Position numbers and translations under genes: made by a program
Notes under the pieces: model-generated
Told to the model about the DNA's origin: nothing
Seen by the model: only the letters and a program-made list of their open reading frames with translations
Database searches by the model: none
Origin: Arthrobacter silviterrae
GTDB taxonomy: Bacteria > Actinomycetota > Actinomycetes > Actinomycetales > Micrococcaceae
DNA length: 52,679 bases
NCBI RefSeq assembly: GCF_011045165.1
Contig: NZ_JAAKZI010000032.1
Coordinates: forward strand, 1-52,679
Direction: 5' to 3'
Shown: piece by piece, positions 39,887 to 43,683 of the stretch
Layout of the letters: every line of letters starts with the position of its first letter
How positions within the stretch are numbered: the first letter of the stretch is position 1

Positions 39887-40026
39887 GAGCGTCTAACGTT
39901 GCAGGGGATCACCTCCCCGAACAGCGATAATTGTTGTATGGCCGGCAGGCCGGGAGGGATCATTCCCGACAACCATCAAGCATCAATGTTTGCCGGGCCA
40001 GCAGGAAAGAAAGTGGGCGCAGGATC

Positions 40027-43000
40027 ATGTCAGCTCCAGCAATGGACAACGTCTCAACGTCCCGGGAGCCGGACTTTGCCCGGACGCCCCCGCAGGACCT
40101 CGTGGCGGAACAGAGCGTCCTGGGCGGAATGATGCTCTCCAAGGATGCCATCGCCGACGTGGTGGAAGTTCTGCGCGGCAATGACTTCTACCGCCCCTCC
40201 CACGAAAGCATCTACGAGGCCATCCTTGACCTCTATGGCCGCGGCGAACCGGCAGACGCCGTTACGGTGGCCGACGAACTGACCAAGCGCGGTGAAATCG
40301 CGAAAATGGGCGGGGCCGCCTATCTGCACCAGTTGATCCAGTCGGTCCCGACCGCCGCCAACGCCGGCTTTTATGCGGAGATTGTCGCCGAGCGGGCGGT
40401 GCTGCGCCGCCTGGTGACCGCCGGCACCAAGATTGTCCAGATGGGCTATGCCCAGGACGGCGAAGTGGAAGACGTGGTCAACGCCGCGCAGGCGGAGATT
40501 TTCAAGGTCGCCGAACGGCGTACTACGGAGGACTACGTGATCCTCAAGGACGTCATGGAATCCACCGTGGATGAGATTGAGGCGTCCGGCCACAAGGGCG
40601 AGGGCATGACCGGCGTGCCCACCGGCTTTTACGAATTTGATGAACTGACCAACGGCCTGCACCCCGGCCAGATGATTGTCATCGCGGCCAGGCCGGCCGT
40701 CGGGAAGGCGCTGGCCCTGGACACGCCACTGCCCACGCCTGCCGGCTGGACCACCATGGGCGAGGTCAAGGTTGGCGACACGGTCCTGGCCGCCGATGGA
40801 ACTCCCACGGTGGTGGTTGCCGCCACCGAAGTCATGCTTGGTCGGCCGTGCTTTGAAGTGACTTTCGACGACGGCAGCATCCTGGTTGCCGATGCCGAGC
40901 ACCAGTGGCTCACCGACACGCGGGCGTCAAGGAAATCGGCCCAGGGGGCAGCGCATCCCCGCATCTTTCCGCAGGTGCGCACCACCGCGCAGATCGCCGA
41001 AACTGTTCGGTGCGAAACTGCTGACCAGCGCTTGAATCACTCAATCCGGAATGCACAAGCGCTGGACCTGCCCCCCGCAGATCTGCCCATCGGGCCCTAC
41101 ACGCTAGGGGCCTGGCTCGGTGACGGGGCATCCGCCGCAGCGCGGGTTACCAACGCCGACCAAGAAGTGTTCATGCGGATCTCCGCTGAAGGCTATGAGC
41201 TGGACAATCTGGACCATGGTTCATTGCAGGCCTTGTTGCGCTCCAACTCATTGTTGGGCAACAAGCACATTCCGGACATGTATCTCCGGGCGGCTGTCGC
41301 CCAGCGACGGGACCTCTTGGCGGGCCTGTTGGACACCGACGGAACCGTGACCAACAGTGGCTGCGTTCAATTCGCAGTAACGAGTCTGCGTCTGGCCAAA
41401 GATGTGCGCGAGCTTGCGCACAGCCTGGGCTACCGCACCGGTTGGTCGGAGAAGCGTGTCAACGGACGCACCGAAGAATCCTCCACCTGCTACACCATCA
41501 CCTTCGCCACCGACGATGTTGTTTTTGGACTAACGCGCAAGCAGTTGCTGCACAAGGAACGCGATGCACGGGCCACGCCAAAACGGAGCCAACGCTTCAT
41601 CACTTCAGTCCGCGCGGTTGAGTCCGTGCCGGTGAAGTGCATCCAAATTGCCCACAGCACTCACTTGTACCTGGCAGGGCGCTCCTTCATCCCGACCCAC
41701 AACTCCACGTTCGCCCTTGACTGGGCGCGTTCAGCGGCCATCACCCACAACATGGCGACCGTAGTGTTCTCCCTTGAAATGGGCCGCAACGAGCTGGCCA
41801 TGCGACTGCTCTCCGCCGAGGCAACCATCAACCTGCAGGACCTGCGCAAGGGAACTGTCAAGGACGACCAGTGGTCCAAGATCGCCACGACCATGGGCAA
41901 GATGAACGATGCCCCGCTGTTCATCGACGATTCCCCCAACATGTCGCTGATGGAAATCCGGGCCAAGTGCCGCCGCCTGAAGCAGCAGCATGACCTCAAG
42001 CTGGTGATCCTGGACTACCTCCAGCTGATGTCCTCCGGGAAGCGTGTGGAATCTCGCCAGCAGGAGGTCTCGGAGTTCTCCCGTGCCCTGAAGCTGCTGG
42101 CCAAGGAGTTGCAGGTGCCGGTGGTGGCGCTGTCCCAGCTCAACCGTGGTTCCGAGCAGCGCACGGACAAGAAACCCATGGTTTCTGACCTTCGTGAATC
42201 GGGTTGCCTCACTGCCGACACCCGCATCATGCGTTCCGACACAGGCGCAGAAACCACCATGGGTGAGCTGTTCTCAACTGACGCAAGGGATGTCCCCGTT
42301 TGGTCGTTGGGCGACAACCTGCGCTATGTTGAGCGGCACTTGACGCATGTCTTCCCCACAGGCAGCAGACCAGTCTTCAAGCTGACGTTGGCGTCCGGCC
42401 GGACCATCCGCGCAACGGCGAACCACCCGTTCTTCACCTACGAAGGTTGGCGCCCGCTGGGCGAGTTGGCCTCCGGTGACCGGCTCGGCATCCCGCGCCA
42501 TGTCAATGGACCATCTGCCCGGACTGAGTGGGACGACCGTCAAGTCGTCATGCTCGCACACCTACTGGGCGATGGATCTTTTGTCCGCAAACAGCCGATT
42601 CGGTATGCGACAAAGGATGAACAAAACATTAAGGCCGTCACTGACGCGGCCGGTTACTTTGGGATAACCGCCAAACGCGATGACTACGCGGTGGCTCGCT
42701 GCACCACGCTCAGACTCCCGGCGCCCTTTCCCTTGGCGCGAGGCAAAAGGAACCCGATTGCCGCATGGCTCGATGGCCTGGGGCTTTTTGGCCTGAGAAG
42801 TCACGAGAAGTTCGTCCCCGAAGCCGTTTTTGCTCTCCCTAAGATTCAAATAGCGAAGTTTCTTAGTCACTTGTGGGCCACAGACGGCTCAGTCACGGTC
42901 AACAAAGCTGGTCATGGGGGGCGCATTTACTATGCGTCCACCTCGCGCCGGTTGGTTGACGACGTTGCGGGCTTGCTACTCCGCTTTGGCATAACCGGCA

Positions 43001-43683
43001 GAATTCGGCAGGCGAGCGCCAAGGGACACTACCGCCCTGGCTACACTGTGGATGTCTCAGGTGCCGATGACCAACGGCGCTTCCTTCAGGAAATTGGCGT
43101 TCATGGCGAACGCTCGGCATCGGCAGAAAGACTACTCGGCATTGTCAAGAACATCAGCGCCAACACAAATGTAGACACCCTTCCGATTCAGGTCTGGGAC
43201 AAAGTGCGCGACATTTTGTCGGAGAGTGAGCTGACGCACCGGGAATTTCAGGGCGCACTCGGAACCCACTACTGTGGCTCTGCACTGTTCAAGTCCGCAC
43301 CGTCGCGACAACGCCTGGGACGAGTAGCTGAAGTTCTGGACAGCGCGGAGCTGGAAGTTGAAGCTGTCAATGATCTGTTTTGGGACAGCATCGTCGCCAT
43401 TGATCCGGACGGGGAGGAAGAAGTTTTCGACGCAACCGTCATTGGCAACCACAACTTCATCGCCAACGGCATCGCCGTCCACAACTCGATCGAGCAGGAT
43501 GCCGACATGGTCATCCTGCTCCACCGCGAGGACATCTACGACAAGGAGTCGGCGCGGGCTGGCGAGGCAGACGTCATCGTGGCCAAGCACCGCAACGGCC
43601 CCACGAAGACCATCGTGGTGGGCTTTCAGGGCCACTATTCACGGTTTGCCAACATGGCGAACGACGGCGGCGGCGGGTATTAG
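40027..43683 (+). CDS. dnaB: Replicative DNA helicase DnaB with two inteins
   Basis: Precursor of 1218 aa; after removal of two inteins the helicase would be 459 aa, a normal DnaB length. Exteins are residues 1-227, 560-726 and 1154-1218. The N-domain starts TPPQDLVAEQSVLGGMMLSK, Walker A is split as AARPAVGK/STFALDWA, Walker B is LVILDYLQLM, and DLRESG/SIEQDADMVILLHRE holds the second junction. ATG 40027 is chosen; the frame extends to 39931. The enzyme unwinds DNA at the fork as a hexamer. Both inteins must be spliced, since each splits a catalytic region. Its end overlaps the convergent DMT gene by 45 bases. Confidence 0.96.
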   Translation: MSAPAMDNVSTSREPDFARTPPQDLVAEQSVLGGMMLSKDAIADVVEVLRGNDFYRPSHESIYEAILDLYGRGEPADAVTVADELTKRGEIAKMGGAAYLHQLIQSVPTAANAGFYAEIVAERAVLRRLVTAGTKIVQMGYAQDGEVEDVVNAAQAEIFKVAERRTTEDYVILKDVMESTVDEIEASGHKGEGMTGVPTGFYEFDELTNGLHPGQMIVIAARPAVGKALALDTPLPTPAGWTTMGEVKVGDTVLAADGTPTVVVAATEVMLGRPCFEVTFDDGSILVADAEHQWLTDTRASRKSAQGAAHPRIFPQVRTTAQIAETVRCETADQRLNHSIRNAQALDLPPADLPIGPYTLGAWLGDGASAAARVTNADQEVFMRISAEGYELDNLDHGSLQALLRSNSLLGNKHIPDMYLRAAVAQRRDLLAGLLDTDGTVTNSGCVQFAVTSLRLAKDVRELAHSLGYRTGWSEKRVNGRTEESSTCYTITFATDDVVFGLTRKQLLHKERDARATPKRSQRFITSVRAVESVPVKCIQIAHSTHLYLAGRSFIPTHNSTFALDWARSAAITHNMATVVFSLEMGRNELAMRLLSAEATINLQDLRKGTVKDDQWSKIATTMGKMNDAPLFIDDSPNMSLMEIRAKCRRLKQQHDLKLVILDYLQLMSSGKRVESRQQEVSEFSRALKLLAKELQVPVVALSQLNRGSEQRTDKKPMVSDLRESGCLTADTRIMRSDTGAETTMGELFSTDARDVPVWSLGDNLRYVERHLTHVFPTGSRPVFKLTLASGRTIRATANHPFFTYEGWRPLGELASGDRLGIPRHVNGPSARTEWDDRQVVMLAHLLGDGSFVRKQPIRYATKDEQNIKAVTDAAGYFGITAKRDDYAVARCTTLRLPAPFPLARGKRNPIAAWLDGLGLFGLRSHEKFVPEAVFALPKIQIAKFLSHLWATDGSVTVNKAGHGGRIYYASTSRRLVDDVAGLLLRFGITGRIRQASAKGHYRPGYTVDVSGADDQRRFLQEIGVHGERSASAERLLGIVKNISANTNVDTLPIQVWDKVRDILSESELTHREFQGALGTHYCGSALFKSAPSRQRLGRVAEVLDSAELEVEAVNDLFWDSIVAIDPDGEEEVFDATVIGNHNFIANGIAVHNSIEQDADMVILLHREDIYDKESARAGEADVIVAKHRNGPTKTIVVGFQGHYSRFANMANDGGGGY
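40708..41703 (+). mobile_element. Class 3 intein with LAGLIDADG endonuclease, in Walker A
   Basis: 332 residues (precursor 228-559), inserted after GK of the P-loop. The first residue is Ala, not Cys or Ser, so normal class 1 splicing is impossible. Block B reads GSILVADAEHQWLT (Trp at position 12), block F PVKCIQIAHSTHLYLAG (Cys at position 4), and block G IPTHN/S (Thr at position 5). This is the W-C-T triad of class 3 inteins. Endonuclease motifs LGAWLGDGA and LAGLLDTDGT are present, so it may still home. All splicing residues appear intact. Confidence 0.92.
42205..43485 (+). mobile_element. Class 1 intein with LAGLIDADG endonuclease, at RESG/SIEQ
   Basis: 427 residues (precursor 727-1153). 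It begins CLTADTRIMRSDTG (Cys1), has block B GRTIRATANHPFF with the Thr-x-x-His motif, endonuclease motifs MLAHLLGDGS and FLSHLWATDGS, block F EEVFDATVIGNHNFIANG and ends AVHN before Ser+1. This is the same insertion site as the well-known Synechocystis DnaB intein. Base use is less GC-rich than the flanking exteins, especially around 42800-42960, which suggests horizontal entry. Confidence 0.94.

Follow-up and report, generated by a model that had tools for sequence, protein, structure and literature searches.

A class 3 intein with a shortened endonuclease lobe in the Walker A motif of the replicative helicase DnaB of Arthrobacter silviterrae

The closest described systems are two mycobacterial inteins, Mycobacterium smegmatis DnaBi1, inserted at the DnaB-b site (structures 6BS8 and 6OWN), and M. 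chimaera DnaB1 (6RIX and 6RIY). According to the excerpted text of PMC6195587, DnaB of M. smegmatis is interrupted twice, in the P-loop by a class 3 intein and in the H4 loop by one of class 1, and Trp67, Cys118 and Thr137 of the class 3 intein constitute the WCT triplet, the positions of which are designated B12, F4 and G5 in the excerpts of PMC5050341. DnaBi1 is described as a mini-intein without endonuclease (PMC7360933 and PMC6195587, both in excerpt), and the DnaB-b inteins studied in PMC5050341 lack endonucleases as far as its excerpts go. In the same portions of PMC6195587, Cys48 is characterized as a non-conserved residue outside the splicing blocks which is nevertheless pivotal for a splicing-blocking disulfide in M. 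smegmatis, and all changes of Cys48 that were tested abolished splicing there.

Here we report on an intein in a stretch of 52,679 nucleotides from A. silviterrae (contig NZ_JAAKZI010000032.1), which will be referred to as the window. The host gene is a dnaB reading frame of 1250 residues, open from a TTG at 39931 with ATG 40027 as the likely start (assigned by eye), in which 332 in-frame residues are encoded by positions 40708-41703 of the forward strand. The features of the locus are the following:

39931..43683 (+), dnaB reading frame with two inteins, matching TIGR00665 and NF005852 above their cut-offs
40702..40707 (+), Gly-Lys, the last N-extein residues of Walker A (ARPAVGK), from translation and 16/16 intein-free genomes of the genus
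40708..41703 (+), class 3 intein of 332 aa, Ala1 to Asn332, from translation, homology and AlphaFold model
40849..40851 (+), Cys48, matching the redox partner Cys48 of M. smegmatis in an ungapped alignment to 6BS8, invariant in 80/80
40906..40908 (+), Trp67, the W of WCT at block B position 12, from translation and alignment
41104..41130 (+), block C, first LAGLIDADG-type motif LGAWLGDGA, from translation and alignment
41200..41211 (+), place at which 407-aa relatives have 75 more residues with predicted strands and CxxC pairs, junction approximate
41314..41343 (+), block E, second LAGLIDADG-type motif LLAGLLDTDG, from translation, Pfam and alignment
41638..41640 (+), Cys311, the C of WCT at block F position 4 and putative first nucleophile, matched to M. 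smegmatis Cys118 by alignment
41695..41703 (+), Thr330-His331-Asn332, end of block G with the T of WCT at 330, from translation and alignment
41704..41709 (+), Ser+1, encoded by TCC, and the following Thr of Walker A, from translation and intein-free genomes
42205..43485 (+), second intein, LAGLIDADG type, 427 aa from Cys1 to VHN/S, flanked by DLRESG and SIEQDAD

The intein starts with ALALDTPLPTP and ends with SFIPTHN, and is flanked by the exteins ARPAVGK and STFALDWARS. Among 23 genomes of the genus (own genome included), all 16 that are free of the intein read ARPAVGK-STFALDWA across the insertion site, and owing to this uniformity the boundaries are exact, with the insertion lying between Lys and Ser of Walker A. 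An earlier reading of the letters alone, referred to below as the sequence-only reading, had placed an intein beginning with Ala at 40708-41703, between GK and ST of the P-loop and with an HN/S end. All of this was confirmed: the translation is uninterrupted with exactly these ends and 332 aa, intein-free genomes read straight across the site, and SFIPTHN is followed by ST. The sequence-only reading noted neither the other intein of this dnaB nor the shortness of the first endonuclease lobe. We infer, reasonably in our view, that unspliced DnaB is incapable of using ATP; the excerpts of PMC6195587 likewise treat the ATP block of unspliced DnaB as an inference.

Searches with phmmer aligned residues 1-71 without gaps to 6BS8 of M. 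smegmatis (E = 4.7e-35) and residues 1-79 with one gap to 6RIX/6RIY of M. chimaera (E = 1.2e-37); a second aligned stretch comprised residues 298-331, in 6BS8 as in 6RIX/6RIY. The alignment offsets equate W67, C311 and T330 with Trp67, Cys118 and Thr137 of M. smegmatis, so that the WCT residues occupy B12, F4 and G5 as the sequence-only reading had claimed, and these E-values rule out a chance occurrence of W, C and T. Position 1 holds no Ser, Cys or Thr nucleophile (Ala1), the intein ends in a penultimate His and a terminal Asn followed by the +1 nucleophile (HN/S), and the AlphaFold model (mean pLDDT 94.0) aligns to 6BS8 and 6RIX, consistent with the HINT fold. The GK/ST insertion, Cys48 and the block F Cys are the hallmarks of DnaB-b/DnaBi1 inteins, all of which are present. 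In Foldseek the model matched class 3 DnaB inteins in the splicing domain and PI-SceI, the VMA intein of Saccharomyces cerevisiae, overall, the latter being the best match. PI-SceI, which we take to be a class 1 intein, has the same layout of a HINT splicing domain plus a two-motif LAGLIDADG endonuclease, but it resides in another host protein and is only 15-18% identical in the Foldseek alignments.

The assignment to class 3, also made in the sequence-only reading, is borne out by homology to the two solved class 3 DnaB inteins and by conservation among full-length DnaB-site inteins. In an alignment of 80 of these, A1, C48, D62, H65, W67, the block F Cys and the Thr, His and Asn of block G were invariant (80/80). 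The set consists of those of 81 distinct DnaB entries that reach both ends (L048 was omitted); it takes in the window's own intein and several from the genus scan, and the label DnaB was given by a motif rule. As D62, H65, W67 and C311 are part of the peptide patterns by which most of these loci were retrieved, the invariance of these four residues is partly selected, whereas that of Ala1, Cys48, Thr330 and the terminal His-Asn, which the patterns do not hold, is not. By analogy with the published class 3 mechanism, Cys311 would attack the Lys-Ala bond, the N-extein would be handed on to Ser+1, Asn332 would cyclise aided by His331, and splicing would restore the Walker A loop GK-ST. Taken together, we read the insertion as a DnaB-b (P-loop) intein of class 3 that interrupts the chromosomal replicative helicase and very probably splices by the class 3 route, and whose homing is probably reduced or ended, and put the probability of this reading at about 0.92.

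With M. smegmatis DnaBi1 and M. chimaera DnaB1 the window's intein has in common Ala1, the WCT triplet, Cys48, His65 and the TH at the end of the aligned part, and with the former, according to the published excerpts, also the P-loop insertion site. In contrast to the M. smegmatis mini-intein it has retained a LAGLIDADG domain, and it resides in a non-mycobacterial host. The second intein is of class 1 type, with a splicing domain resembling that of the DnaB inteins 4O1R and 1MI8, and was found in one of the 23 genomes of the genus, namely the window's own; as DnaB of M. smegmatis shows the same arrangement, the two-intein layout is already known. The P-loop intein is thus a new member of the published DnaB-b/DnaBi1 family, and since class, site and two-intein layout have been published, the finding as such is ordinary for a specialist. 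The new details are the host and the shortened endonuclease.

In the alignment, Cys48 and Cys311 match Cys48 and Cys118 of M. smegmatis; PMC6195587 (in excerpt) reports a disulfide between the latter two and inhibition by H2O2. The window's intein might also restrain replication as a redox brake, a role proposed in M. smegmatis: upon oxidation a Cys48-Cys311 disulfide would form and DnaB would stay unspliced until reducing conditions return. The presence of Cys48 in 80/80 DnaB-site inteins is in line with this idea. However, the residue is equally invariant in those inteins that carry long endonucleases, and a Cys occupies the same place in 32 of 44 relatives outside DnaB. Furthermore, since Cys48 changes abolished splicing in M. 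smegmatis according to the excerpts, the invariance may reflect splicing alone. We therefore treat the redox brake as tentative and lean somewhat against it. Redox-controlled splicing, reported for M. smegmatis, may not be a defining trait of DnaB-b/DnaBi1 inteins. As Cys48 is invariant in endonuclease-bearing inteins too, it is not a late regulatory addition; judged by its distribution it is an old feature of DnaB-b inteins and their relatives, present while endonucleases were still carried. This bears on the published idea that links a redox-sensing role to the endonuclease-less intein.

Both LAGLIDADG motifs are kept, as the sequence-only reading had noted, with LGAWLGDG starting at aa 133 and LLAGLLDTDG at aa 203, each of them retaining its Asp, but according to the model the first lobe lacks the strands of the 407-aa relatives. 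Those relatives (e.g., L059 from Arthrobacter wenxiniae and L064 from Specibacter cremeus) occupy the same site and are 80-90% identical over the shared parts; they differ by 75 more residues in endonuclease lobe 1, which include three CxxC pairs and predicted strands. Between the block C helix (130-139) and the block E helix, the model of the window's intein shows no strand of at least three residues, whereas the 407-aa model has lobe 1 strands at 146-148, 164-169, 172-176, 184-187 and 194-197; in lobe 2 the strands are the same in both models. The Pfam Hom_end match (29.1 bits, cut-off 21.1) is confined to the second half. Hence two LAGLIDADG motifs with catalytic acidic residues are present, and two complete lobes with DNA-binding strands are not, as judged from models and not from structures. 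With the lobe 1 strands missing from its model, an active endonuclease cannot be assumed.

The three CxxC pairs in lobe 1 of L059 (3501-4721), L064 (2815-4035) and the other 407-aa inteins are zinc-finger-like in appearance. Of the 80 DnaB-site inteins, 26 have two or more CxxC pairs in the segment separating the LAGLIDADG motifs. The 407-aa model is of low confidence in the CxxC part, with pLDDT at about 46-75 for blocks of ten, so that zinc binding is suggested by the cysteines alone. Among the matches listed for titles and abstract beginnings in open-licence PubMed Central, no description of a zinc-type module in a DnaB-b intein endonuclease was found.

Several observations would fit an endonuclease that is still active in spite of its short first lobe, in which case the 332-aa form would home by cutting empty dnaB sites that it recognizes through a smaller surface. 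The catalytic Asp residues are kept and the endonuclease part is highly conserved, with dN/dS values of 0.04-0.08 in the window's comparisons (0.04 between the two short forms of the genus, where dS is saturated at 2.89) and a single private change among the 130 positions that do not vary in the other six inteins of the genus. Similar short forms exist in other genera: Rhodococcus and Mycobacterium inteins of about 335 aa keep all three checked Asp positions in several species, which implies that a short endonuclease could still function. On the other hand, all three positions were Asp in 28/30 DnaB-site inteins with a block C-E spacing of at least 83 but only in 24/50 with a smaller one (p = 2.5e-5, relatedness ignored), the lobe 1 strands are missing from the model, and the two short forms of the genus are without sign of recent transfer whereas two 407-aa forms show such a sign. 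Consequently, we regard continued activity of the short endonuclease as unlikely on balance. The other 332-aa form, in genome G002, is altered by Asp211Lys (block E) and Gly138Ser (block C), neither of which occurs in the window's intein. From the alignments and models we conclude that shortening of lobe 1 tends to accompany endonuclease decay and that the window's intein appears to be early in this decay, with reduced or no cutting. In line with the preferred reading, the shortened lobe 1 probably reduces or ends homing. The endonuclease would once have spread the intein; here it has a shortened first lobe with the catalytic Asp residues retained.

Within the genus the intein occurs in 7/23 genomes (own included), five with 407 aa and two with 332 aa (the window's and that of G002), and the length difference sits between the two LAGLIDADG motifs, comprising lobe 1 strands and three CxxC pairs. 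The 407-aa inteins of G006 (L133, L139) and G022 (L134, L138) are 98.0% identical in DNA compared to 94.2% for the N-extein and 92.1% for the C-extein, with a dS of 0.04 for the inteins and 0.34 for the exteins. The site is empty in G013, the genome placed with G022 by the extein tree (0.938). Judged by these distances, the 407-aa form has recently been transferred between the species of G006 and G022. A recent transfer of the window's intein was not seen, its dS to the other six inteins of the genus being 0.92-1.67.

The whole-intein tree groups the window's intein with those of G006/G022 (0.949) and that of G002 with G012 (0.936), all partners being long forms; the tree of the C-half agrees with it (0.958 and 0.987), and the tree of the N-half is undecided. 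For the 332-aa forms of the window and G002 this placement suggests two shortening events or recombination, and equal length together with similar junction letters suggests one event, dS being saturated. A composite LAGLIDADG endonuclease with a zinc-binding lobe 1 module might now be homing between species of the genus and its relatives, and the window's intein might be a natural derivative lacking these 75 residues, caught soon after loss of the module and before catalytic decay. We give this proposal a little less than an even chance. If true, a single site would present the whole series from empty through mobile to truncated, completed by the mini-intein seen in other genera of the family Micrococcaceae. 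One genus with the site empty, with a recently moved long form and with truncated forms allows a direct test of intein endonuclease loss.

The helicase gene is preceded by open reading frames resembling ssb and rplI (by eye). The N-extein search of the own assembly returned the window's gene and one other DnaB, which is 40% identical (query residues 17-259), carries no intein and has a GK-T P-loop (L195 6005-7339, minus strand, on contig C85 of the same genome). Its neighbours resemble genes for a tape-measure protein and an integrase (by eye), and it is probably a prophage gene. With the apparent ssb and rplI genes in front and the other DnaB being a separate gene, a phage or plasmid origin of the window's DnaB was rejected. 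A DnaB_C profile search gave a third, weak match on contig C19 (frame of 466 aa, 27.2 bits at a cut-off of 27, profile positions 4-66), which the N-extein search of the assembly did not recover, and a second DnaB of the window's type was not found by the latter search. The exteins are under strong purifying selection, with dN/dS values of 0.013-0.075 in the 21 pairs among the seven carriers of the genus. This selection and the lack of a second DnaB of the same type in the assembly indicate that both inteins of the window's dnaB very probably splice in the host. A dead, pseudogene-like insert, as reported for the class 3 intein in Arth_1007 of Arthrobacter FB24 (PMC3196547, in excerpt), is highly improbable here, as all splicing residues are intact, the host gene is intact on both sides and the assembly search found no second DnaB of this type.

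The codon of Ser+1 was TCN in 7/7 intein carriers versus 5/16 empty dnaB genes of the genus (L173-L194; Fisher two-sided p = 0.0046, relatedness ignored). For comparison, 40 genomes from the family's other genera were picked by hand among the matches listed (245/245 family genomes gave a match); of their 40 empty sites, 39 had TCN and one AGT. As TCN is near-universal in the empty sites of other genera, AGY marks part of the window's genus, and the link between TCN at Ser+1 and intein carriage is a weak lead.

The rarity of class 3 inteins, which the sequence-only reading had considered to be mostly known from phages and mycobacteria, did not hold, as 341 stretches encoding relatives were found in a one-genome-per-species collection and the best 80 of the 341 span many actinobacterial genera. 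Relatives were detected in 33 of 245 sampled genomes of the family, not all of them in DnaB; in G178, for example, the relative and the DnaB place are widely separated. A DnaB-site intein of just 447-450 bases, i.e., a mini-intein, is present in four family genomes (G059, G123, G166 and G190). DnaB-site versions of 335 residues with both LAGLIDADG motifs occur in M. genavense (L008) and M. tilburgii (L020). In relatives L117, L119 and L130, which lie on viral contigs, the first and last matched residues are 788-862 residues apart, much further than in the rest.
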